Shown here: piece after piece, positions 1 through 9,868 of the stretch
How the letters are laid out: every line of letters starts with the position of its first letter
How positions within the stretch are numbered: the first letter of the stretch is position 1
NCBI GenBank assembly: GCA_030248225.1
Contig: JASANE010000798.1
Location: 1 to 64,000, forward strand
Source of the DNA: Trileptium ribeirensis
Lineage: Eukaryota > Nematoda > Enoplea > Enoplida > Thoracostomopsidae
Direction: 5' to 3'
DNA: 64,000 nucleotides
Translations under genes and position numbers: made by a program
The notes under the pieces: model-generated
Seen by the model: the letters and a program-made list of their open reading frames with translations, nothing else
Databases searched by the model: none
Told to the model about the DNA's origin: nothing

Positions 1-1806
1 ATGAATTTACTTTTACGAAAGGGTGTTTACCCCTATGAATATATGGACTGTTTCAGTAAATTTGAAGAAACTGTATTACCCCCAAAAGAAAAATTTTATT
101 CCACTTTAACTGATAATGAAATTACTAATGAAGACTACCAGCATGCACATCAAGTATGGAATGTTATGAACATTAACAACATGGGCGAATACCATGATTT
201 ATATTTATGTACAGATATATTATTACTGTGTGATGTATTTGAAAATTTCCGTATGTTATGTTTAGATAAGTATATGTTAGACCCTGTACATTACATTACT
301 TTACCAAGTTTTGCGTGGGATGCTTGTTTGAAGTTTACGGGTGTTGAGTTGGAATTACTGACAGATCCTGACATGTATACTTTCTTTGAGGAAGGTATAC
401 GTGGAGGTGTGTCAGTAATTTCACACCGATACGCAAAAGCTAATAACAAGTACCTCCCAGAAACATATGATACAACACTTGCAACGATGTATATAATGTA
501 TCTGGATGCAAATAACTTATATGGCTGGTCAATGTCACAAAAGCTGCCCTGCAGCAACTTTACATGGTTGACCCAAAAACAAATTGATGACATTGACTGG
601 TCAATAGTTAATACTCAGGGTGATACTGGCTATGTACTTGAGGTTGACTTGGAGTATCCTGAGGAGTTACATGATAGTCATAATGACTATCCTTTAGCTC
701 CTGAAAGGCTTCAAGTCACAGATGGTATGTTGTCAGAATATTGCGCTGACCTTAAAGAGGTGTTAAATGTAAAGTCTGGTTCTGTCCAGAAACTTGTACC
801 AAACCTCATGCACAAACAAAAATATAAATTGCATATAAAAAATTTACAACTCTATTTACATTTAGGCATGAAGTTGTGCAAGGTCCATAGAGTAATTTCA
901 TTTACTCAGGACAGTTGGATGGAACCATACATTAGATTTAACACCGAAATGCGCAAGAATGCTAAAAGTAATTTTGAAAAAGATTTATATAAATTACTGA
1001 ATAATGCTGTATTTGGTAAAACTATGGAAAATGTACGTGCGTACATTGATGTAAAATTAGTAACATGTGAACATAAATATAAAAAATTAATAGCTAACCC
1101 CCGTTATAATATGTCTAGTATATTTAATGAAAATTTAGTAGCTGTTAAAATGAATAAGCGTACTGTACATTTGTGTAAACCAATTTACATTGGGTTTACA
1201 GTACTTGATTTATCAAAAACATTAATGTATAGTTTTCATTATAATTATATGAAATGTGTATATAATAATAATTGTAAATTATTGTTTACCGATACTGATT
1301 CTCTATGTTATGCTGTATATACGGATGATATTTATAAAGATATGAGTGAAAATCTACAACTGTTTGATACGAGTGATTATCCTACAGATCATCCTTTGTT
1401 TTCTACGCTAAACAAAAAAGTTTTGGGTAAGATGAAGGATGAGACTGCAGGCACTCCTATTGAAGAGTTTGTTGGTTTACGCTCAAAAATGTATAGTATT
1501 AAGTGTGGTAATATAGAGAAAAAACGTGCTAAAGGTATTAAAAAATGTGTAGTTAAAAAAATAATTAACCATCAAAAATATAAAAATACTTTATTTAATA
1601 AAACTAATAATAAACATTTAATGCATATGATTAGAAGTAATAAACATATTTTACAAACTATAAAACAAAATAAAATAAGTTTAAGTGCTTTTGATGATAA
1701 ACGTTTTTTACTTAATGATGGTATAAGTAGTTATGCTTATGGCAATTATAATATATTTGATGACAAGTTTTTGTCATTGTTAAATAATATGTGTAATGAT
1801 AAATAA
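1..1806 (+). CDS. polB: Protein-primed family B DNA polymerase, 5'-partial
   Basis: Replicative DNA polymerase of a Polinton/adintovirus-type element, expected to copy the linear viral genome from a protein primer. The visible 601 residues cover the end of the exonuclease domain (YLCTD near 68-72, an ExoIII-like motif) and the whole palm: motif A around residue 169 (LDANNLYG), motif B at 331-340 (LLNNAVFGK) and motif C at 430-435 (TDTDSL, both catalytic Asp present). The ATG at base 1 is internal: the family has several hundred more N-terminal residues, which lie outside the window. The frame is open to TAA at 1804-1806, and an AATAAA overlaps this stop (1802-1807). It precedes the integrase on the same strand. 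The palm looks intact, so the copy is probably young. Polymerase family is certain; the exact element class rests on the neighbouring genes. Confidence 0.96.
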   Translation: MNLLLRKGVYPYEYMDCFSKFEETVLPPKEKFYSTLTDNEITNEDYQHAHQVWNVMNINNMGEYHDLYLCTDILLLCDVFENFRMLCLDKYMLDPVHYITLPSFAWDACLKFTGVELELLTDPDMYTFFEEGIRGGVSVISHRYAKANNKYLPETYDTTLATMYIMYLDANNLYGWSMSQKLPCSNFTWLTQKQIDDIDWSIVNTQGDTGYVLEVDLEYPEELHDSHNDYPLAPERLQVTDGMLSEYCADLKEVLNVKSGSVQKLVPNLMHKQKYKLHIKNLQLYLHLGMKLCKVHRVISFTQDSWMEPYIRFNTEMRKNAKSNFEKDLYKLLNNAVFGKTMENVRAYIDVKLVTCEHKYKKLIANPRYNMSSIFNENLVAVKMNKRTVHLCKPIYIGFTVLDLSKTLMYSFHYNYMKCVYNNNCKLLFTDTDSLCYAVYTDDIYKDMSENLQLFDTSDYPTDHPLFSTLNKKVLGKMKDETAGTPIEEFVGLRSKMYSIKCGNIEKKRAKGIKKCVVKKIINHQKYKNTLFNKTNNKHLMHMIRSNKHILQTIKQNKISLSAFDDKRFLLNDGISSYAYGNYNIFDDKFLSLLNNMCNDK

Positions 1807-1810
1807 AAAA

Positions 1811-1903
1811 CACACAAAGGTGCAACTACTAAAATACGTTGCACAAAAAATAAAGTGTGTAAAGTACACAAAGGTGCAATTATTAAAATACGTTGCACAA
1901 AAA
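1811..1903 (+). repeat. Tandem stem-loop repeat after polB
   Basis: Two direct copies of a unit of about 53 bp start just after the polymerase stop. Each contains a perfect short hairpin followed by an A-run: GTGCAAC 1820-1826 with GTTGCAC 1838-1844, and GTGCAA 1874-1879 with TTGCAC 1893-1898. Placement in the 3' UTR beside an AATAAA suggests a role in 3'-end formation or RNA stability. This is inference. From 1911 to 2098 I see only AT-rich sequence. Confidence 0.6.
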
Positions 1904-2098
1904 AATTAAATGTGTACCATAATAAATTCAAAATTGATATTGTTTGTGTATGATATTGTTTGTGTATTTTTGTCATTTGATTGTCTGTATTAATGTGTAA
2001 CATGTGAAAGGCTTGAAAGACTATATCCAAACTTTTTCGATGAATATTTGATTGTGATGTGAAAACACATGAAAGACTAAAAAATACTCAAACCTTTT

Positions 2099-2179
2099 GC
2101 ATGTAACCCACCACCTACTGTTTTTCGATGCGACAGTAGGTGCCGGTCCCAAGTCCGGATAAAAATGGTGAGGGCATGT
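2099..2179 (+). ncRNA. Twister self-cleaving ribozyme, copy 1
   Basis: The sequence matches the twister core. P1 is GCATG 2099-2103 with CATGT 2175-2179; the expected cleavage is between T2104 and A2105 of the conserved TAAC. P2 is CACCA 2109-2113 with TGGTG 2166-2170. A hairpin CCTACTGT 2114-2121 pairs with ACAGTAGG 2133-2140. The P4 hairpin CCGG 2143-2146/2155-2158 closes the invariant loop TCCCAAGT, followed by ATAAAA and AGGG. The loop CCC (2148-2150) can form the tertiary pseudoknot with GGG 2172-2174. It lies between polB and the integrase, just before the integrase promoter motif, so it would cut read-through transcripts. A second copy with covarying stems is at 9789-9868. Confidence 0.93.
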
Positions 2180-2188
2180 AAAAGAATT

Positions 2189-2204
2189 CTTAAAAGCTTT
2201 TAAG
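2189..2204 (+). promoter_or_regulatory. Promoter-like motif CTTAAAAG as a 16-bp palindrome, integrase
   Basis: CTTAAAAG at 2189-2196 is followed directly by its reverse complement at 2197-2204, so the box could be read in both directions. It starts 34 nt before the integrase ATG, and that ATG is the first one downstream. It is one of nine exact copies I counted by eye in the element. Confidence 0.6.
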
Positions 2205-2222
2205 CATCTTTGTATTTAAAAA

Positions 2223-3284
2223 ATGGATGTGGAGTTAAGTAAAATTTATTATGATGCAACTAATGTAGCTGGTTATTCAACACCAGCTAAATTATTCACT
2301 GAGGCTAGACAGAATGGATTGAAGGCTACAAAGAAACAAGTGAAAGAATGGCTAAAAGGACAAGAAACCTACACCCTTCATAAGCCACGTAGGTTAAAGT
2401 TTCGTAGAAGACGAACTATAGTGAAAGGTATAGGTGACTTAATCCAAGCTGACTTGGCTGATATAACAAATTTAGCATCACATAATGATGGAATTAAATA
2501 TTTACTAGTAACAATTGATTGCTTTACAAAATTGGCAAAGGTTGTTGGCGTGAAAAACAAGCAATCTACAACAATTTTGTCAGCACTTAAAACTATTTTT
2601 GAAAAAGAACAGCCAAAAAACCTTCAAACTGATAATGGAAAAGAGTTTGTTAATAACTTAGTATATGACTACATGAAAAGTAAAGGTATAAATATATATA
2701 CAACTAGAAACGTTGAAACGAAAGCTAGTATTGCTGAGCGCTTTATACGAACACTTAAAGGTAAAATTTACCGGTATTTGACTGCGAAAAACACGAAAAA
2801 GTATATTGATGTATTGGATAGTATTGTAAACACTTATAATAAAACTAAGAATAGGTATGGATTTGCTCCAATAGATGTTAATGTGAGTAACGAGGAAGAA
2901 ATTAGACGGAAACTATTTCCATCTAAAGATATTGAAGTATTTTATAAATTTCAACTAGGAGACATTGTCCGTATCAGTAAAGAGCGAATGCCTTTTGAAA
3001 GGGGGTTTAATCAACTGTGGTCTCTTGAAGTTTTCACTGTAAGTACACAATATGCATACGATCCACCAGTTTATGAGTTGGTGGATGCAAATAATGAAAA
3101 AATCTTAGGTAGATTTTATGCACAAGAGTTGCAAAATGTTTATGTTAAAGATGATACTTACAAAATTGAAAAAATTTTAGGAAAACGTAAAGGTAAAAAA
3201 GGCACTGAGTATCTTGTAAAGTGGTTGGGATATCCAAAAACATTTAATTCATGGGTAAACGAAAAAGATTTACGACCAATATAA
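2223..3284 (+). CDS. int: Retrovirus-type integrase with C-terminal chromodomain
   Basis: DDE integrase expected to insert the linear element into host DNA. The catalytic triad is visible: D77 (QADLAD), D137 (QTDNGKEF) and E172 (SIAERFIR), with the 35-residue D-to-E step typical of the rve fold. Residues 312-353 form a chromodomain (YKIEKILG, EYLVKWLGY, SWVNEKDL), which in related integrases reads histone marks to guide insertion. A very basic stretch (KFRRRRT, 59-65) precedes the core. At 353 residues and without interruption it is a normal length for Polinton or adintovirus integrases. The start is the first ATG after the CTTAAAAG box at 2189. A tandem repeat follows its stop. Confidence 0.96.
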   Translation: MDVELSKIYYDATNVAGYSTPAKLFTEARQNGLKATKKQVKEWLKGQETYTLHKPRRLKFRRRRTIVKGIGDLIQADLADITNLASHNDGIKYLLVTIDCFTKLAKVVGVKNKQSTTILSALKTIFEKEQPKNLQTDNGKEFVNNLVYDYMKSKGINIYTTRNVETKASIAERFIRTLKGKIYRYLTAKNTKKYIDVLDSIVNTYNKTKNRYGFAPIDVNVSNEEEIRRKLFPSKDIEVFYKFQLGDIVRISKERMPFERGFNQLWSLEVFTVSTQYAYDPPVYELVDANNEKILGRFYAQELQNVYVKDDTYKIEKILGKRKGKKGTEYLVKWLGYPKTFNSWVNEKDLRPI

Positions 3285-3300
3285 TGGAAATAATGAAACA

Positions 3301-3725
3301 GAGGTACAAAACAGGGGTACATTATAAGGGTACGTGGGTACAATACAGGAGTACATGGGTACAATACAGGGGTACATGGGTACAAAACAGGGGTACATGG
3401 GTACAAATTAGGGGTACAAACCAGGGGTACGTAGGGGTACATGGGGTATAATATAGGGGTATATGGGTACAAACTAGGGGTACATTATAAGGGTATGTGG
3501 GTACAAACTAGCTGTGCATGGGTACAATATAGGGGTATGTAGGGGTACAATATAGGGGTACATGGGTACAATATAGGGGTATGTAGGGGTACAATATAGG
3601 GGTACATGGGTACAATATAGGGGTACGTAGGGGTAGAATATAGGGGTACATGGGTACAAAATAAGGGTATGTAGGGGTACAAAACAGGGGTACATGGGTA
3701 CAATATAGGGGTACATGGGTATAAG
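3301..3725 (+). repeat. GGGGTACATGGGTACAA-type minisatellite
   Basis: About 425 bp made of imperfect tandem units of about 20-40 bp built on GGGGTAC, ATGGGTAC and AATATAGG. It fills the whole gap between the integrase stop and the ATPase promoter. The units are rich in the palindrome GTAC and strand-asymmetric (G on +, C on -). On the minus strand it happens to be open and would read as a Tyr/Pro repeat (YPYIVPMYP-like), which I treat as a by-product of the repeat. Confidence 0.92.
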
Positions 3726-3730
3726 AAACG

Positions 3731-3738
3731 CTTAAAAG
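3731..3738 (+). promoter_or_regulatory. CTTAAAAG box, ATPase gene
   Basis: Exact CTTAAAAG starting 40 nt before the ATPase ATG at 3771. A weaker near-copy, CTTAAAA, directly abuts that ATG (3764-3770). Confidence 0.55.
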
Positions 3739-3770
3739 ATCAAAAATTTGATGATATATAATTCTTAAAA

Positions 3771-4508
3771 ATGGCTTACACATGTGAAAAATGTTCAAGA
3801 GAGTATACTACGCGTCAGCATTTGCATAGACATAAGAAACAATGTAGCGACAAGACGAACGTTGTTAGTAATAGAGAGTATAACAAAATTATTTTACCGT
3901 TGGAACTACCTTTTACTTGTGTTGTTAGTGGACAAACTGGATGTGGGAAAACCCAATGGATAGCGAAACTGTTAAAGCATAAAATGTTTGATAAACCTGT
4001 GGATAAAATATTGTTTTGTTACAGCATTTTTCAAGATATTTATACCACACTGTTAAATGAAATACCAAATTTAGAACTTCATGAGGGAATTCCTGACACG
4101 TTTGCACAAACTGATGTAGGACATATGATATGTGTGCTTGACGATTTAATGATAGAAGCAGCAAATGATAAAAAATTAGCTGCTGCTTTTTCAAAGATGA
4201 GGCATAATAATTTAAGTACAATTTTTGTAACACAAAATTTATATCACGAGGGTAAATACATGAGAACAATTACAAGAAATGCACAATACATGGTACTTTT
4301 CCCAAACATGAGAGACAAATCTATGATTTGTACTCTTGGAAGACAAATGTGGCCAACCAAAAGTAATTTTTTACCAAGCGCTTTCGAACAAGCGACAAGT
4401 AAACCATATGGTTACATATTTTTAGATCTAAAACCAAATACTGAAAAACTCTTAAGAGTTAGAGAGTGTATTTTTCCAGATGATGATTACATGTTTGTAT
4501 ACGCTTAA
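3771..4508 (+). CDS. Packaging ATPase with N-terminal zinc finger
   Basis: Genome-packaging ATPase of the FtsK/HerA-like class found in Polintons, adintoviruses and virophages, expected to pump DNA into the capsid. The P-loop GQTGCGKT is at residues 54-61 and Walker B (CVLDDLM, with acidic D124 and D125) at 121-127. Residues 5-25 form a C2HC-type zinc finger (CEKC, then HLHRHKKQC) fused ahead of the ATPase. Length of 245 residues is normal for the family, and it is uninterrupted. The TAA stop (4506-4508) lies inside the CTTAAAAG box of the next gene. The zinc finger may bind the genome end or the portal; that is inference. Confidence 0.93.
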   Translation: MAYTCEKCSREYTTRQHLHRHKKQCSDKTNVVSNREYNKIILPLELPFTCVVSGQTGCGKTQWIAKLLKHKMFDKPVDKILFCYSIFQDIYTTLLNEIPNLELHEGIPDTFAQTDVGHMICVLDDLMIEAANDKKLAAAFSKMRHNNLSTIFVTQNLYHEGKYMRTITRNAQYMVLFPNMRDKSMICTLGRQMWPTKSNFLPSAFEQATSKPYGYIFLDLKPNTEKLLRVRECIFPDDDYMFVYA

Positions 4509-4511
4509 AAG
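4504..4511 (+). promoter_or_regulatory. CTTAAAAG box overlapping the ATPase stop
   Basis: The stop codon TAA of the ATPase gene is the centre of this box (reading GCT TAA AAG). It starts 36 nt before the ATG at 4540. An ATG at 4518 is only 14 nt from the box, probably upstream of any start site set by a TATA-like element, and opens a short dead-end frame. Confidence 0.6.
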
Positions 4512-4539
4512 GTTTAAATGATTGAAGGTCAGGAGAAAA

Positions 4540-4809
4540 ATGTCTAAAAATATAGAAAAACACATTGATACATTACAATTTTTGAAGAATTGTCCTTCGA
4601 AAATTGTTACAGCTGTAATTATGAATGCTCCAGCATCCCTCATTTACGCTTTTAGTGAAATTGCATATAACGCTGTACAAAATAAAAAAACAAAAATACT
4701 TAAAAGCATTGCAAATAAGAATATTTGTATTTCAAAAAAACGTAAATTACTTACACCACCAGTTGTAAAGTACTTAATTGATTATTTTGATAAACATTAT
4801 GGCACGTAA
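4540..4809 (+). CDS. Small conserved Polinton-type basic protein
   Basis: An 89-residue protein starting MSKNIEKH. It resembles the short proteins that commonly sit beside capsid genes in Polinton-like elements: an N-terminal helix (LQFLKNCPSKIV), a middle Ala/Ile segment ending in EIAYNAV, and a Lys-rich C-terminal half (KTKILK, SKKRKLL). I know no function for the family; a virion or DNA-binding role is inference from charge. The ATG at 4540 is chosen because the only earlier in-frame start is TTG. Its 3' end overlaps the next gene by 11 nt, and its coding sequence carries the CTTAAAAG box at 4699. Confidence 0.75.
   Translation: MSKNIEKHIDTLQFLKNCPSKIVTAVIMNAPASLIYAFSEIAYNAVQNKKTKILKSIANKNICISKKRKLLTPPVVKYLIDYFDKHYGT
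4699..4706 (+). promoter_or_regulatory. CTTAAAAG box inside the small basic gene
   Basis: This exact copy is embedded in coding sequence, encoding part of ILKS. It is 100 nt before the next gene, further than usual, but the first ATG downstream of it is exactly the start of that gene at 4799. Confidence 0.45.
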
Positions 4810-5203
4810 AATGGCAGTTGTTCCAGCAAGCTGGTTGGAACATAATATGAAGACAAGAGCGATTGAAGAAAAACCTGTAGTAAATGAAATTGAGGTTTAC
4901 AATGAACCAAAAATGAATACTAATATTATAGATTTATTTCCAAAAAACCTTCGGAAAAAAGCAAAGCTGATGCTTGAACACATTAAAAACCTAAAATTAG
5001 ATGATAATAATAGGGTTGTATATGGAAACAAGAAAAAAGGTTCAAATATTTTTGATCTTATAAAATATTTTACTTCAGATGTAAACTTTTCACCACCGAG
5101 ACCTTTAGATTCAGAAGAGTTTGAGAAAATTTTGACAAATGTGCCTGATGCGGCATTTGGAAGAGGTAGAAAACAAGTTTCAAAATGGAAAAAGTTATAT
5201 TAG
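4799..5203 (+). CDS. Polinton-type protein with GSNIFDLI motif, unknown function
   Basis: A 134-residue protein starting MARKMAVVPASWLEHN. The C-terminal half has the pattern I associate with a common but unnamed Polinton protein: a K/G-rich turn, then GSNIFDLIKYF, a Pro pair (SPPRPL), a helix EEFEKIL and NVPDAAFG near the end. I see no catalytic residues, membrane segment or zinc site, and it is not the adenain protease. The start ATG overlaps the end of the preceding gene, in a different frame. An alternative start is the ATG at 4811. From 5204 to 5276 there is only a weak promoter-like motif. Confidence 0.78.
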   Translation: MARKMAVVPASWLEHNMKTRAIEEKPVVNEIEVYNEPKMNTNIIDLFPKNLRKKAKLMLEHIKNLKLDDNNRVVYGNKKKGSNIFDLIKYFTSDVNFSPPRPLDSEEFEKILTNVPDAAFGRGRKQVSKWKKLY

Positions 5204-5223
5204 TAACCGTGGTAAACTTGATA

Positions 5224-5233
5224 TTTTAAAAAG
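5224..5233 (+). promoter_or_regulatory. Degenerate box TTTTAAAAAG before the NADAR gene
   Basis: The best match to CTTAAAAG upstream of the NADAR gene, starting about 52 nt before its ATG. A six-codon upstream frame (ATG at 5257) ends in TAA overlapping the NADAR ATG as TAATG, which could couple translation. This is the only gene of the block without an exact or near-exact box. Confidence 0.3.
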
Positions 5234-5276
5234 TATATGTAATGAATAAAAAATTTATGATTTCAATTCAAAAATA

Positions 5277-5780
5277 ATGGAGCATACTAAGTTTTGTGTT
5301 AGCACCACAGGAACACCTTTGGTTTTGTTCAGATCAGGGTGGAGTGTGTTTAGCAATTTTAATATTTGTAAATTTTATATTAATGGGATTTTATATAATT
5401 GTGTTGAACAATGGTATCAAAGTGAAAAAGCACGCTATTTTCAAGACTATGAAAGTTATGAAATGATAATGAAAACTTATAAACCAAGCATGCAGAAAAT
5501 GATTGGGAAAAAAATTAAAGGTTTCAATGATGATGAGTGGAAACAGGTTGCGAGTAAAATTATGAGGATTGGTTTATGGGAAAAATTTAAACAAAATAAT
5601 AATATAAGGGAGGAGTTAATGAACACTGGTGATGCAATTATTGCAGAAGCCAGTGAATGGGATAATTATTGGGGAATTGGTATTAGTTTGTTTGATAAAA
5701 AAGTAAACGACATGCAAACCTGGTCTGGACAAAATGTTTTAGGTGGTTTGTGGATGCAAATACGTGACTTTGAACAGTAA
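5277..5780 (+). CDS. NADAR-domain (YbiA-like) protein
   Basis: A 167-residue single-domain protein of the NADAR family, enzymes that act on ADP-ribose-type nucleotides (N-glycosidase chemistry in YbiA; removal of ADP-ribose from guanine reported for other members). Family landmarks in order: FSNF at 25-28, the active-site segment VEQWYQSEKA with E44 and K51, a central helical part, then WDNYWGIGIS at 128-137 and the C-terminal GQNVLGGLWMQIRD at 151-164. All key segments are present and the length is typical. In a virus it could counter a host ADP-ribosylation or NAD-based defence, or repair modified DNA; that is inference. Its stop is followed at once by the structured 103-nt element. Confidence 0.93.
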   Translation: MEHTKFCVSTTGTPLVLFRSGWSVFSNFNICKFYINGILYNCVEQWYQSEKARYFQDYESYEMIMKTYKPSMQKMIGKKIKGFNDDEWKQVASKIMRIGLWEKFKQNNNIREELMNTGDAIIAEASEWDNYWGIGISLFDKKVNDMQTWSGQNVLGGLWMQIRDFEQ

Positions 5781-5883
5781 CCCAACAGTCCTCCCAAGGA
5801 CTCGTGGATTAGGGCTACTGGCGACACCACGTAAAAATAAAACGCTGGATAAGGGTACCGCAAGGTCCAGTGGAAACCCTTAA
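5781..5883 (+). ncRNA. Structured 103-nt RNA element, copy A
   Basis: Begins one base after the NADAR stop and is 99 of 103 identical to copy B at 9345-9447. Visible pairings: AGTCCT 5787-5792 with AGGACT 5797-5802; CGTGG 5803-5807 with CCACG 5827-5831; an A-rich linker; CTGG 5845-5848 with CCAG 5867-5870, enclosing ACC/GGT closed by a GCAA tetraloop (5857-5866); and TAAGGGT 5850-5856 with ACCCTTA 5876-5882, which crosses the CTGG stem as a pseudoknot. The hairpin CGTGG-TTAGGG-CCACG plus A-rich linker recalls the first part of pistol ribozymes, but the rest does not match, and I cannot assign a known class. Its 3' end runs into the promoter box of the TBP gene. Confidence 0.75.
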
Positions 5884-5886
5884 AAG
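5879..5886 (+). promoter_or_regulatory. CTTAAAAG box, TBP gene
   Basis: Exact copy that shares bases with the 3' strand of the 103-nt element's pseudoknot. It is 34 nt before the ATG at 5913 but only 16 nt before the earlier ATG at 5895, which favours 5913 as the real start. Confidence 0.55.
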
Positions 5887-5912
5887 GATAATTTATGCTT
5901 GAACTGTTAATT

Positions 5913-6434
5913 ATGGATAACAGAATAACTAATTTAACTATTGCTTGCAATGTTGAATGTGATATTGATTTAATGGAATTGTCAATGTTTGTAAATAATG
6001 TCGATTTTGATGATGAACGTTTCAATGCAGCCAAATGGCGGTTTAAACCAAGGGGAACTATATTAGTATTTCCAAACGGTAAACTTATTTTAGTTGGTGT
6101 TAAAAGTATTTGTGAAGCAGATAAATTGTTGAAGAAAGTATGTAAAGAGTTAAAAAACTTAGGATACGTTTGTAGCCTAAGCTGGGAAGTAAAAAATGTT
6201 GTGGGTTTGATGAAATTAAACAAGCGGTTAAGGTTAGCCGACATTTATAACACATTAAGAACATGCACAACTGTGTTATATGAACCTGAAATATACAATG
6301 CACTGAAAATAAATGTGAATAAATGCACTGCTTTGGTATTTGTTAGTGGTAATGTAGTTATTACAGGATGTAAAAACATTAATGAATATAAGCAGTTTGT
6401 ACTTTATATGTATAATATACTTAAAAGGTTTTAA
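5913..6434 (+). CDS. TATA-binding protein homologue (virus-encoded TBP)
   Basis: A 173-residue TBP core with both direct repeats of the saddle fold. Repeat 1 covers about 7-90, with RFNAAKWRFKPRGTILVFPN and GKLILVGVKS; repeat 2 covers about 95-173, with YEPEIYNAL, ALVFVSGNVVITGCK and a C-terminal YNILKRF that matches the eukaryotic ILKGF end. Phe53 and Phe143 align with DNA-intercalating Phe of cellular TBP. There is no long N-terminal tail. It should bind a TATA-like box and recruit the Pol II or III machinery. Divergence from cellular TBP is large (gaps and changed residues), which suggests a long viral history or altered DNA specificity. It stands at the head of the capsid gene block. An upstream ATG at 5895 would add six residues. 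Similarity is clear; function is inferred. Confidence 0.93.
   Translation: MDNRITNLTIACNVECDIDLMELSMFVNNVDFDDERFNAAKWRFKPRGTILVFPNGKLILVGVKSICEADKLLKKVCKELKNLGYVCSLSWEVKNVVGLMKLNKRLRLADIYNTLRTCTTVLYEPEIYNALKINVNKCTALVFVSGNVVITGCKNINEYKQFVLYMYNILKRF
6420..6427 (+). promoter_or_regulatory. CTTAAAAG box inside the TBP 3' end
   Basis: Encodes the Leu-Lys-Arg of the TBP C-terminus (LKRF-stop). It starts 31 nt before the ATG at 6451, the first ATG downstream. Confidence 0.58.
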
Positions 6435-6450
6435 ATATTGATTGTGTATA

Positions 6451-7068
6451 ATGATTAAAATGGAGCATGTTATTATTTGTGATTTAAATGATAAGCAAGT
6501 TGAACTTCCAGTAGCGATTGCTGCAAAGAAAGTTAAAGTTTTAGAAGTGATAATGCCTCACAAATTTATAAATATACAAAAAAGTGAAATTGACTATTTT
6601 ACAAACAATAAATGGAAACGATTTCATGTTGAGAAAGGTTATTATAATGAAAGCACGTTAATAAATTTTTTAAATTTATACAGTACAGACATTCAGTTTG
6701 CATTGGATACATGTTGTGACCGAGTTAGCATATATTGTTTAAATACTGCTGAAATTAAATTGTCTGAAAACATAGCCGAATTATTTGGGTTTGAAGAACG
6801 GCATTTGAGAAATGGTAGACACAATGGTACAAAAAGTTTGAGATTGTTAGAACCTAAATTTTTACTGTGTTCTTTCATTCATGAAAGATCCGTAAATGGA
6901 AAAAATAAACAGTTGTTGCATGTATTAACTGACAAAACAAACAGTACTGACTTGCTTTTAAATACATGTTTGGTAAAAACTATAAATTTTGAGGTAACAG
7001 ATGTAAATTTTAAACCAGTTGAATATTTTAAAGGTGATAAAATGATTATGAGATTATGGTTTTCATAA
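6451..7068 (+). CDS. Penton-like minor capsid protein
   Basis: A 205-residue protein (or 202 from the ATG at 6460) fitting the single jelly-roll penton proteins of Polintons and adintoviruses: N-terminal beta-rich segment (ELPVAIAAKKVKVLEVIMP), a YNESTLINFLN segment like the conserved penton Y-N-x-x-x-L block, an IAELFGF turn, and a final strand set ending EYFKGDKMIMRLWFS. It directly precedes the core peptide and the major capsid gene, as expected. No frameshift is visible. The call rests on pattern and position, not on an exact motif. The TTG-initiated extension upstream is ignored. Confidence 0.8.
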   Translation: MIKMEHVIICDLNDKQVELPVAIAAKKVKVLEVIMPHKFINIQKSEIDYFTNNKWKRFHVEKGYYNESTLINFLNLYSTDIQFALDTCCDRVSIYCLNTAEIKLSENIAELFGFEERHLRNGRHNGTKSLRLLEPKFLLCSFIHERSVNGKNKQLLHVLTDKTNSTDLLLNTCLVKTINFEVTDVNFKPVEYFKGDKMIMRLWFS

Positions 7069-7073
7069 AAATG

Positions 7074-7081
7074 CTTAAAAG
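7074..7081 (+). promoter_or_regulatory. CTTAAAAG box, core-peptide gene
   Basis: Exact copy 37 nt before the ATG at 7111. Two earlier ATGs (7089 and 7104, in one shared frame) lie 15 and 30 nt from the box and give only 9-14 codons. Confidence 0.55.
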
Positions 7082-7110
7082 CAATTATATGTATTGTTTT
7101 GATATGAAAA

Positions 7111-7233
7111 ATGGCAATACCATTATGTTTTAACATGTCTAAACTGCCAGAGGCAGTAGAAATAAAAACCAAGATAAAAAAGAAGGTTAAGAAACCTGTT
7201 AAAAAGAAAGTGAAAAAGCTTAAAAGGAAGTGA
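7111..7233 (+). CDS. Lys-rich 40-residue core-like peptide
   Basis: A very small gene. The first 18 residues are neutral or hydrophobic (MAIPLCFNMSKLPEAVEI); the remaining 22 are mostly Lys with Val and Pro spacers (KKKVKKPVKKKVKK, ending KLKRK). Such peptides in adenoviruses and adintoviruses condense the packaged DNA, and the position between penton and major capsid genes fits. It has its own upstream box and is followed by the box of the next gene, whose bases encode its last Leu-Lys-Arg. The function is inference from composition and place. Confidence 0.75.
   Translation: MAIPLCFNMSKLPEAVEIKTKIKKKVKKPVKKKVKKLKRK
7219..7226 (+). promoter_or_regulatory. CTTAAAAG box, major capsid gene
   Basis: Lies in the last codons of the core-peptide gene and starts 38 nt before the capsid ATG at 7257, which is the first ATG downstream. 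Confidence 0.6.
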
Positions 7234-7256
7234 GTTTTTAAATATTCAATACAATA

Positions 7257-8543
7257 ATGGAGCATACATGTGGATTGGAAAAATTAAATTGGTTAGCTGG
7301 TGCGTACCCCACGCAACAGTCAATTGAATCAACCCAATTGGTTGAAGTTGCATGTGATACAACTTTGCCTAGTAGTGATGAAGAGGATTCATTGCGTTTC
7401 AAAATTAATGAAAGTGCCCTTGACTGCATTGACTTGTCACAAATATATGCATATATAGAGTTACAAATTTTAAAAGGTGATGGAAAAAATCTACCCCCAA
7501 ATGAAAAATTTATCCCATGCAATATGTTTGGGTATGCAATATTTTCATCTGTGCAAATGAAAATAAATGGTGAACCTGTAACATTTAACCAAAGGCATTA
7601 TCCTTGGATGATATATACACTTTATATGCTACATATGAATGAGCAGCAAAGATTACAATATTTACAAGGGTGTATTTATGCACAAGATAGTGCATATACA
7701 TTTGATAGTTTTGATGATAATAATGGTGGAACAGCTAGACAAACATACTTTATATCTTCAACGAAAGCAGAATTATATTTTCCTATCATTATTGATGCAC
7801 AATTTATACCGAAATTCTTACCACCAAAAACAAAAGTTGAGTTTGAGTTTAGCAGAAGCCCTGCCAATGTTGTTATTTTGCATGATAAAGATAAAAATTA
7901 TAAACTGCGTATAAATGACTTTAAACTTTACGTTGCTAAATCTAAACTAAGTAAACAAGCTTTGGAAATGCAAGATAAGATATTAAATAGTAGTGGAGCA
8001 ACATTTCCTGCAATAAGATACAGAATACATACATTTTCTGTTAATAAGGGTCTACAAAATGTTGATTGGACTGTGTTTGATGGAAAATTACCTAGACGAA
8101 TTTACGTGTGGGGAATAACACAGGAAGCGTACACAGGTGGAGTAAAGAAAAACTTGTTTAATTATAAGTTACCAGATATTAATAGTTTTACACTTTTTCT
8201 GAATGATGATAGGTTACCATGTAATGTTGCATTACCATGTAAATCCGGTAACAATTTAAGAGTGTTTCAAAATACACTATATGCACTTAATTATAGAACT
8301 GATAATATAGGGCTAACTAGATCTAATTTTGATGGTGGGTATAAAATATTTTGTGTGGATATGAGTAGAGACCATAGTAGTGACTGTAACTATATTTCAA
8401 ACCCAGCAGAAGGTAATCTAAGGGTCGTAATTGACTTTACAACAGTATTAAATGAAGCAATTGTATTATTTGCAATGGGTGAATACCCTGCAGAGCTGCA
8501 TATAAATAAAAGTAGAGAAGTATATTGGAATAAAATTGCTTAA
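7257..8543 (+). CDS. mcp: Major capsid protein, double jelly-roll (hexon-like)
   Basis: A 428-residue major capsid protein of the Polinton/adintovirus type, forming pseudo-hexameric capsomers. Supporting features: length, position after the penton and core genes, the N-terminal block SLRFKINESALDCIDLSQIY and YAYIELQI, the segment FGYAIFSSVQMKINGEPV followed by YPWMIYTLYML (a common pattern near the start of the first jelly-roll in this family), the middle YFPIIIDAQFIPKFLPPKT with VEFEFSRSP, and the C-terminal GNLRVVIDFTTVLNEAIVLF. The frame is open throughout. Its TAA stop (8541-8543) lies inside the next CTTAAAAG box, in the same phase as at the ATPase stop. Confidence 0.92.
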   Translation: MEHTCGLEKLNWLAGAYPTQQSIESTQLVEVACDTTLPSSDEEDSLRFKINESALDCIDLSQIYAYIELQILKGDGKNLPPNEKFIPCNMFGYAIFSSVQMKINGEPVTFNQRHYPWMIYTLYMLHMNEQQRLQYLQGCIYAQDSAYTFDSFDDNNGGTARQTYFISSTKAELYFPIIIDAQFIPKFLPPKTKVEFEFSRSPANVVILHDKDKNYKLRINDFKLYVAKSKLSKQALEMQDKILNSSGATFPAIRYRIHTFSVNKGLQNVDWTVFDGKLPRRIYVWGITQEAYTGGVKKNLFNYKLPDINSFTLFLNDDRLPCNVALPCKSGNNLRVFQNTLYALNYRTDNIGLTRSNFDGGYKIFCVDMSRDHSSDCNYISNPAEGNLRVVIDFTTVLNEAIVLFAMGEYPAELHINKSREVYWNKIA

Positions 8544-8546
8544 AAG
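8539..8546 (+). promoter_or_regulatory. CTTAAAAG box overlapping the capsid gene stop
   Basis: Reads GCT TAA AAG with the capsid stop in the middle, as at 4504. It starts 27 nt before the ATG at 8566 and 33 nt before the one at 8572. Confidence 0.6.
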
Positions 8547-8565
8547 GTGATGTATAATTAGATAA

Positions 8566-8970
8566 ATGAAAATGGAAAAAGAAATAGCATTTGTTGTTTT
8601 GTTACTTTTTATAACACTGCTTGTTGTAAGCATTGATATCAGCATACATAAATATTCACCAAAATGTTATAACGTAAAATATGAAATAGAATGGGTTAGA
8701 AAAACAGAAAATGAAACACAGCTTATTGTAAGATTCCAAAATTATGAAAATTGGAGTCATTTATTAATTATATGGGACAACGTTTTTGATAAAATCAAAT
8801 TATATACCAATAACAGTGTGTTCATTGTTACGAGCAATGAAGTTAAAGGATTTAGAGCAGAAAAACTAGTGGTAGTGACGAAATTTGTGGAAACATTAGC
8901 AAAATTTGATTTAAGAAATGTTAGGTTGATTAATGTAGTTGTTAGAAATGACGTCATTACGAAAGTATAA
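8566..8970 (+). CDS. Small single-pass membrane protein
   Basis: A 134-residue protein (132 from the ATG at 8572). Residues 8-26 are a strong hydrophobic segment (AFVVLLLFITLLVVSI) behind a short charged N-terminus, which reads as a signal anchor. The rest is a soluble region with beta-rich segments (QLIVRFQNYENWSHLLIIW, KLVVVTKFVETLAKF, VRLINVVVRNDVITKV). I do not recognise the family. Polinton-like elements often carry one membrane protein in the capsid block, possibly an inner-capsid or entry component; that is analogy only. Confidence 0.7.
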   Translation: MKMEKEIAFVVLLLFITLLVVSIDISIHKYSPKCYNVKYEIEWVRKTENETQLIVRFQNYENWSHLLIIWDNVFDKIKLYTNNSVFIVTSNEVKGFRAEKLVVVTKFVETLAKFDLRNVRLINVVVRNDVITKV

Positions 8971-8980
8971 ATACTGCTAA

Positions 8981-8998
8981 AATTGCTGAAAAGCAATT
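8981..8998 (+). promoter_or_regulatory. Variant box CTGAAAAG in a perfect hairpin
   Basis: AATTGCT 8981-8987 pairs with AGCAATT 8992-8998 around GAAA. Within it CTGAAAAG (8986-8993) differs from the common box at one base. It starts 47 nt before the ATG at 9033, the first ATG downstream. Confidence 0.4.
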
Positions 8999-9032
8999 CA
9001 GTTTGATTTTGCAAGGATAGAGTTTGGTGACC

Positions 9033-9341
9033 ATGGACAACGTTGTTTCTTTTGTGCTGAGCGATTATTTAGTACAGGAAATAAAACAAGCAGAGGCAGA
9101 AGTAGAAATATTTGAACACAACTGTAGAGTTACAGGAGAATATATTGATGGGCGCTCAATGGAACAGCATAAGTTACAGCATTTGCTGTCTTTACGTGAG
9201 AAAATGATTTTTTCCGTGAAATTTATGACAAAACAAATGAAAAAAGGCGTACCGCTAACCATTGCATTTTTTAAGCTTTTTGAAATTTTACCAAACTTTT
9301 CTATAAACAACAAAGATTATATTTTAAACTTGTTCAAATAA
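9033..9341 (+). CDS. Small helical protein of unknown function
   Basis: A 102-residue protein beginning MDNVVSFVLSDYLVQEIKQ in a strong Kozak context (GACCATGG). It looks helical, with a likely coiled segment EIKQAEAEVEIFEHN at 15-29 and a Lys/Met-rich middle (MTKQMKKGVPL). I do not recognise it. It is the last gene of the block; the second 103-nt structured element begins 3 bases after its stop. Confidence 0.65.
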   Translation: MDNVVSFVLSDYLVQEIKQAEAEVEIFEHNCRVTGEYIDGRSMEQHKLQHLLSLREKMIFSVKFMTKQMKKGVPLTIAFFKLFEILPNFSINNKDYILNLFK

Positions 9342-9344
9342 TAT

Positions 9345-9447
9345 CCCAACAGTCCTCTCTAGGACTCGTGGATTAGGGCTACTGGTGATACCACGTAAAA
9401 ATAAAACGCTGGATAAGGGTACCGCAAGGTCCAGTGGAAACCCTTAA
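9345..9447 (+). ncRNA. Structured 103-nt RNA element, copy B
   Basis: Same structure as copy A at 5781-5883. The four differences are all unpaired in my fold: two in the first hairpin loop (CCCA to CTCT) and two in the loop of the CGTGG/CCACG hairpin. Every helix is kept base for base. It lies 3 nt after the stop of the last gene, so both copies sit at the start of a 3' UTR. Confidence 0.75.
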
Positions 9448-9479
9448 CAATTTTATTTATTATAATTAAAATTAAGCCT

Positions 9480-9788: not shown

Positions 9789-9868
9789 GCGTGTAACCAC
9801 CTCTACTGCTTTTTCGATACAGCAGTAGATGGCGGTCCCAAGTCCGCATTAAAATGGGGAGGGCACGC
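9789..9868 (+). ncRNA. Twister self-cleaving ribozyme, copy 2
   Basis: P1 is GCGTG 9789-9793 with CACGC 9864-9868; expected cleavage between T9794 and A9795. The hairpin CTACTGCT 9803-9810 pairs with AGCAGTAG 9821-9828. The P4 hairpin GCGG 9832-9835 pairs with CCGC 9844-9847 around the invariant TCCCAAGT. CCC 9837-9839 can pair with GGG 9861-9863. Compared with copy 1, P1 (A-T to G-C), the inner hairpin (GT/AC to GCT/AGC) and P4 (C-G to G-C) change on both sides and keep pairing. P2 appears weakened by an A/G mismatch. Confidence 0.9.

Follow-up and report, generated by a model that had tools for sequence, protein, structure and literature searches.

We describe a short motif, CTTAAAAG, that precedes most genes of a Polinton/Maverick, the 3′ part of which fills the first 9.5 kb of a 64,000-nucleotide stretch from the nematode Trileptium ribeirensis (contig JASANE010000798.1, positions 1–64,000; hereafter the window). 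Together with a second spelling used by related elements, CTTAAAAAG, it forms a private box, CTTAAAA(A)G, that is almost certainly a selected, promoter-positioned DNA element. The box is likely to serve this Polinton family as a private TATA box, its core-promoter element, with transcription begun by the host and then switched as proposed below, and the element's own TATA-binding protein (TBP) probably reads it. At the level of sequence, these claims are carried by the box, its spacing, strand bias and conservation, by two promoter classes, by the fold and altered DNA contacts of the TBP and by a second TBP–box pair.

An earlier note on this DNA had listed nine exact copies of CTTAAAAG, and all nine coordinates are correct (Table 1). 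Fewer than one copy was said to be expected, which also holds: for positions 1807–9345 base composition gives 0.35 and dinucleotide shuffling a mean of 0.295 (largest of 1000 shuffles, 4), and CTTAAAAG is the most frequent + strand 8-mer there outside a minisatellite. The placement of boxes 27–40 nt before an ATG is right for eight gene starts and wrong for the first ATG downstream, an earlier ATG being closer (11–31 nt) in six of nine cases. Likewise, a box before nearly every gene describes 9 of the 11 genes that start in the window; the exceptions are NADAR (5277), with no box, and the 9033 gene, with a variant only. Host DNA of the window (11001–64000) contains four copies of CTTAAAAG on both strands (13875−, 20177−, 20593+ and 60562−), or 0.038 per kb per strand, against nine in the 7.5-kb element, so that the equal density in host DNA which the earlier note named as a refutation is not seen over these 53 kb. 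An extra minus-strand copy at 2197–2204 forms a palindrome with the 2189 box.

Table 1. Boxes and identified genes in the element, with the distance from box start to gene ATG and the fraction of elements that have a box at −65 to −15 of the same gene.
Feature	Position	Strand	Distance to ATG (nt)	Elements with box	Remarks
DNA polymerase B (PolB), 3′ part	1..1806	+			Cut by window edge, start outside window
Box CTTAAAAG	2189..2196	+	34	9/11	Before integrase
Integrase, rve + chromodomain	2223..3284	+			PF00665, PF00385
Box CTTAAAAG	3731..3738	+	40	14/16	Before ATPase
Packaging-type ATPase, A32-like	3771..4508	+			PF04665, 26 bits (cut-off 22.8)
Box CTTAAAAG	4504..4511	+	36	14/15	Before 4540 gene, overlapping ATPase stop codon
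Box CTTAAAAG	4699..4706	+	100		Inside 4540 gene, before 4799 gene
NADAR gene	5277..5780	+			PF08719, E 1.6e-40; upstream neighbour of TBP; no CTTAAAAG ahead
Box CTTAAAAG	5879..5886	+	34		Before TBP (ATG at 5913), edge of 124-bp repeat
TBP gene, 173 aa	5913..6434	+			PF00352, E 9.3e-33
Box CTTAAAAG	6420..6427	+	40	18/18	Inside TBP C-terminus, before penton-like gene (6460)
Box CTTAAAAG	7074..7081	+	38		Before small basic (core-like) gene 7112
Box CTTAAAAG	7219..7226	+	38	16/19	Before capsid-like gene 7257
Capsid-like gene	7257..8543	+			Syntenic in relatives; label by gene order
Box CTTAAAAG	8539..8546	+	27	3/3	Before gene 8566, overlapping upstream stop codon; elements with located start
Variant CTGAAAAG	8986..8993	+			Before gene 9033, between TATAAAT (8966–8972) and TCAGTT (8998–9003)

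The host genome (687 Mb) holds 150 scored TBP-like places among 753 candidates, fragments included. We fetched 20 diverged loci (L032–L051), whose TBPs are about 43–61% identical to that of the window and which with the window make up the 21 elements compared here. NADAR adjoins TBP in all 20 loci and the penton-like gene is also present in 18, L049 ending at its place and L048 having only NADAR, TBP and PolB pieces; several loci are broken or rearranged. Across the 21 elements CTTAAAA(A)G occurs 136 times in sense and once in antisense (6.7 expected per strand), and TATAAA shows no comparable bias (166 versus 147 by strand). The spelling CTTAAAAG contributes 63 sense copies and 1 antisense (4.7 expected per strand) and CTTAAAAAG 73 and 0 (1.9 expected per strand); within the scanned segments the four-A form is the sole spelling in the window, L032 and L050, the other elements mixing both. 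Unbiased motif discovery in upstream sequence returns CTTAAAA as the top 7-mer (82 of 156 upstream stretches, against a maximum of 25 for any 7-mer in 30 shuffled sets).

Counting annotated starts only, 73 of 136 boxes lie 27–44 nt upstream (random mean 3.2, maximum 11 of 2000); over whole loci the rule used assigns 126 of 141 boxes to a downstream start, with 86 at 32–40 nt and 14 at 99–100 nt. Boxes at −65 to −15 are the norm for six genes (Table 1) and scarce for NADAR (2/21), TBP (1/21) and the 9033 gene (1/15); the 4799 gene has none there (0/17), its box sitting at about −100. The TBP-gene box, found in the window only among the 21 elements, is kept in 16 of 18 close copies of the window. 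We also grouped 37 stop-free TBP rows from 36 places (the window entered twice, near copies included) at 75% identity, and a box is present in 11 of the resulting 12 groups, L048 being the exception. The TATA-like spacing read from nine copies is thus borne out across elements, and spacing, strand bias, recurrence in 11 of 12 TBP groups and a divergent, bona fide TBP together support the suggestion of a dedicated promoter system.

Could A+T-rich DNA and Leu–Lys codons produce such a motif by chance or coding constraint? Boxes 4699, 6420 and 7219 do lie in coding frames with Leu–Lys, yet the strand bias is 136 to 1, and CTT, which makes up 17% of Leu codons in these elements, is used in 12 of 12 open frames at box 4699 and in 17 of 19 at box 6420, the two most codon-uniform of 86 conserved Leu columns in eight genes. 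Strand bias and Leu codon uniformity contradict this explanation, to which we give practically no credence. At box 4699, CTTAAAA is kept in 17 of 17 elements, 15 with the (A)G, and is displaced by 12 nt in L042; the third encoded residue varies (S, R, K, N) while the box DNA stays. Codon uniformity and DNA conservation rule out a chance coding match at this site, and the ninth box is, on this sequence evidence, real. Close copies of the window preserve 92 of 97 boxes exactly, with a mismatch of 0–1.4% in boxes and 2.2–7.4% in flanks.

A signal acting in RNA (a trans-splice acceptor, a translation element in the 5′ leader or a 3′-end signal of the preceding gene) would suit a box that ends in AG, lies close to ATGs and often overlaps the upstream stop codon, and the PolB box stands just 8–14 nt before the ATG in five of seven genes. 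We consider it very improbable. A pyrimidine tract is absent before the box, positions −6 to −3 being A-rich (100 boxes). Between integrase and ATPase (n = 11) the distance to the ATPase ATG is constant at 32–40 nt and that to the upstream stop runs from 99 to 1784 nt, so the box tracks the downstream ATG and not the upstream stop. The box of the 4799 gene lies 100 nt upstream within another frame, and NADAR, whose promoter is of the TATA kind in many elements, is mostly without a box.

The earlier note had also credited the element with a divergent TBP, and this is amply supported: the protein encoded at 5913 matches PF00352 at 112.4 bits (cut-off 22.9) in two stretches and TBPs of the PDB by sequence at E about 1e-18. 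The AlphaFold2 (AF2) model predicts the saddle fold (predicted local distance difference test, pLDDT, 92.6; predicted template modelling score, pTM, 0.82), and Foldseek matches it to PDB TBPs at E values down to 2e-15 and a template modelling (TM) score of about 0.9. By family score and modelled fold the protein is a TBP, a statement that does not extend to canonical TATA recognition. We compared its residues with a plant TBP in yeast numbering, mapped by motif, with numbers partly confirmed by a table in the Kaposi's sarcoma-associated herpesvirus (KSHV) paper. All 37 rows keep N69, N159, F99, F116 and T215, and all 37 change V71 to T, T124 to V and P191 to N. F190 is replaced throughout (Y in 19, H in 17, Q in 1) and V203 is T in 27 of 37. 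The four intercalating phenylalanines are incompletely retained (F99 and F116 37/37, F207 28/37, F190 0/37), and the putative TFIIB-contact glutamates persist (E188 in 37/37, E186 in 36/37). The KSHV paper reports that the P191 equivalent favours T as the first base of TATA and lists E188 among TFIIB contacts (PMC12529657, in excerpt); Arabidopsis TBPs with three second-repeat substitutions accept TGTAAA and other variants (PMC10005294). Set beside the KSHV and Arabidopsis data, the changed residues appear to sit where DNA specificity can shift.

Alternatively, host TBP/TFIID might read the box as a weak TATA variant, with the viral TBP otherwise employed, for example in squelching host TBP or in working with polymerase III factors. 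CTTAAAAG matches TATAAAAG at six of eight bases, TBP tolerates variants (adenovirus box variants have been solved with the wild-type protein), and the one exon read of the host TBP has the canonical sequence (YEPELFPGL, whose ELFPG keeps F190 and P191). This we judge unlikely: the TBP cassette, whose expression has to come first, in many cases carries a canonical TATA in place of the box; the DNA-contact residues are altered alike in 37 of 37 TBP rows; and two Polinton families of one host have different TBPs and different boxes, which the host TBP alone does not explain.

The second family came from a PolB search with L001, an IMG/VR contig that had itself been found by PolB alignment search (48% identical, distant). 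That search yielded further Polintons, among them C4837, with an integrase 51% identical and a TBP of its own; the second family was read from this one element and two short stretches. In the 2.8 kb of C4837 read, CTTAAAA(A)G does not occur and CATGAAAAG occurs five times in sense and never in antisense (shuffles of a 2.2-kb part: mean 0.03, 0 of 2000 reaching 4). The ATGAAAAG of CATGAAAAG starts 37 nt before the first gene, 34 nt before the integrase and 35 nt before the ATPase; of the remaining copies, one is inside a gene and one lies 26 nt after the TBP stop. CATGAAAAG appears twice in 128 kb of the first family. The C4837 TBP keeps F190 and P191, with W replacing F116. TBP and box thus appear, in sequence, to differ together between the two families, and a simple base-to-residue code does not follow; the idea that P191 to N accounts for the first box base is weakened by the second family. 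We would give an even chance to the wider proposition that at least two Polinton families in one animal genome, each with its own diverged TBP and private box, show the repeated evolution of polymerase II core-promoter systems that exclude one another, a natural set of TBP–box pairs that ignore the host's promoters and each other's. By eye, the 45 nt before the second-family TBP resemble the end of NADAR.

For the comparison with a TBP-less relative that the earlier note had envisaged, L001 offers an element of 17.4 kb, of which 14.0 kb were examined and contained no TBP. None of its nine gene starts has a box within 90 nt, and as a distant relative it is a weak control. TATA-like runs stand at its gene starts instead, with boxes elsewhere (1 sense, 2 antisense). 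The same host yielded no clear-cut case of a Polinton without TBP, and the family of L063 was rejected as such a control, having a TBP and a different box. Protein searches with the TBP and the capsid-like protein returned no relatives; nor did scans of IMG/VR, run both with single proteins and with alignments of TBP, capsid and ATPase, or a scan of GTDB contigs with the capsid alignment. With these IMG/VR and GTDB negatives, and L001 as the only, distant match, the comparisons are almost all confined to a single host genome.

NADAR and TBP lie close together in most elements (not in the window) and have upstream signals of another kind. Of the 21 elements, 11 have CCAATCA on either strand at −160 to −40 of NADAR, a motif that none of 133 other starts has there; in 12 of 21, NADAR is preceded by TATA[AT]A with TCA[GT]T following at 26–33 nt. 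The TATAAAT and TCAGTT ahead of gene 9033 form a host-type TATA–initiator pair, and the PolB gene of L059, from the window's clade, combines three CCAAT motifs, TATAAAT and an initiator with the box. The sequences suggest two promoter classes, NADAR–TBP often with a host-type CCAAT/TATA/initiator promoter and the other genes with the private box. This result and the second TBP–box pair extend what the earlier note had proposed.

In the scheme we propose, host RNA polymerase II and host TBP would first transcribe the NADAR–TBP cassette from its CCAAT/TATA/initiator promoters; in the window's clade the DNA polymerase and gene 9033 are probably also host-started. The viral TBP would then bind the private box about 30 bp before the starts of the integrase, ATPase, capsid and other genes and would recruit host TFIIB via its conserved glutamates, bringing in polymerase II. 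Binding, start sites, temporal order and TFIIB recruitment are steps that we infer.

Several observations weigh against a private TATA box read by the element's TBP. The 21 elements are related copies in 12 TBP groups and not independent, and in L048, which has a TBP and little else, the scanned segment contains no box. PolB boxes lie 8, 10, 10, 10, 14, 33 and 95 nt before the ATG (start located in 7 of 10 fetches), and the five closest misfit a simple −30 element for that ATG; boxes may imply very short leaders. The TATA–initiator pattern is loose: overlaps counted, it has 19 antisense matches to 33 in sense, and of these 33 NADAR accounts for 24, the 9033 gene for 4 and other places for 5. 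In the window's clade NADAR is without a recognisable TATA and TBP has the private box, which makes the origin of the first TBP puzzling. CTTAAAAAG lies 64–72 nt upstream of NADAR in L035, L041 and L045 and further upstream in others. Finally, the second-family TBP keeps F190–P191 and yet its box is not TATA-like, so no residue-by-base code can be claimed.

Two by-observations belong beside these points. The close PolB boxes, in L053, L054, L060, L061 and L062, are CTTAAAAG, and in L054 and L060 they follow a pyrimidine–AG stretch that by eye resembles a splice acceptor. In L035, L036, L040–L043 and L045, CTTAAAAAG lies near the end of the 4799 gene, upstream of NADAR, besides the TATA motif.

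TBP is among the most conserved eukaryotic proteins and, to our knowledge, TBPs of altered specificity have come mainly from laboratory work. A transposon-like virus family in which a bona fide TBP has altered DNA contacts, beside dozens of natural copies of its expected site, is a ready comparative set for the evolution of TBP specificity. The arrangement looks like a dedicated gene-switching system of a kind so far known mainly from herpesviruses. There, ORF24 of KSHV is a TBP mimic at TATTWAA late promoters in the late transcription complex of beta- and gammaherpesviruses (PMC12529657, in excerpt). Shared features are a viral TBP-like protein, a dedicated TATA variant, host-like early transcription and use of host polymerase II. 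The differences are as clear: ORF24 comprises four domains, up to residue 752, and perhaps does not contact TFIIB directly (same excerpt), whereas here a bare TBP of 173 aa keeps E188, which that paper counts among the residues critical for TFIIB; ORF24 keeps F190 and P191, unlike first-family Polinton TBPs; and the herpesvirus motif has TATT where the Polinton motifs are CTTAAAA(A)G or CATGAAAAG. Members of the ORF24/UL87/BcRF1 family have the TBP-like domain within a multidomain late factor, and the stand-alone Polinton TBP, by analogy, may work like that family without being a member. If the reading is true, the herpesvirus strategy would have been invented a second time, independently; the arrangement also suggests a two-stage gene programme for Polintons.

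The promoter motif shared by Mavirus and CroV (Cafeteria roenbergensis virus) is reportedly read by the helper giant virus, whereas here the TBP is encoded by the element itself. African swine fever virus is a large cytoplasmic virus with its own polymerase. Its B263R is a predicted TBP (PMC5825884) and resembles our case in that respect, as the Mavirus/CroV motif (PMC8547959) does in reportedly standing ahead of most genes of a small capsid-coding element. Mirusviruses, a different kind of virus, are likewise a eukaryotic DNA virus group with a TBP gene, in 59% of genomes (PMC10132985, in excerpt); 'promoter' has no matches in that paper's text. Among virus-derived elements of a green alga, some with mirusvirus-like capsid genes, TBP is sporadic (PMC10675990, in excerpt). 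In the literature searched, which covers subscription journals thinly, no listed paper seems to report a Polinton TBP, a private box having been sought less widely, and a term search of two Polinton papers (PMC11071296 and PMC11071308) found neither 'TBP' nor 'TATA'.

The element combines PolB, an rve integrase and an A32-like ATPase, and in its PolB, rve–chromo integrase, ATPase and common gene block is like Polintons/Mavericks of the adintovirus-like kind; the hallmarks of this class include a double jelly-roll major capsid protein, terminal inverted repeats and a 6-bp target duplication, and the window covers the 3′ part of the element. Its genes run PolB, integrase, ATPase, 4540, 4799, NADAR, TBP, penton-like, small basic, capsid-like and two more. 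The PolB fragment has 7999 relatives, several with PF03175, and no Pfam match above cut-off; we take it to be of the protein-primed type from PF03175 in the relatives. The capsid-like protein has no match in Pfam, PHROGs or PDB sequences, and family searches with the penton-like protein gave only weak matches (E >0.01). Penton, core and capsid are presumed labels, from gene order. Beyond the element the window contains retrotransposon reading frames and no further gene was identified.

Among minor features, a minisatellite of 21/44-bp units around GGGTACA fills 3311–3721 between integrase and ATPase, and GGGGTACAAA runs resembling it precede the ATPase in several other elements. Two Twister-P1 ribozyme-like matches, both below the gathering score, lie at 2100–2178 (+; 51.2 bits, E 3e-9), between PolB and the integrase box, and at 9790–9867 (+; 36.3 bits, E 6e-5); seven other elements searched gave hammerhead III in L036 and L041 and twister in L032, all below gathering scores. 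A 124-bp repeat at 5773–5896 and 9337–9460, in two copies of 90% identity that contain AATAAA and predicted hairpins, matches nothing in Rfam at E 0.5; in the window it separates NADAR from TBP, with the TBP box on its edge. The NADAR-domain gene that adjoins TBP in the fetched elements may serve NAD/ADP-ribose metabolism or counter-defence. A close relative also exists in another source: the PolB encoded by the metagenome contig P0001 (Joint Genome Institute, JGI; 2,890 bases) and that of the window are 78% identical.

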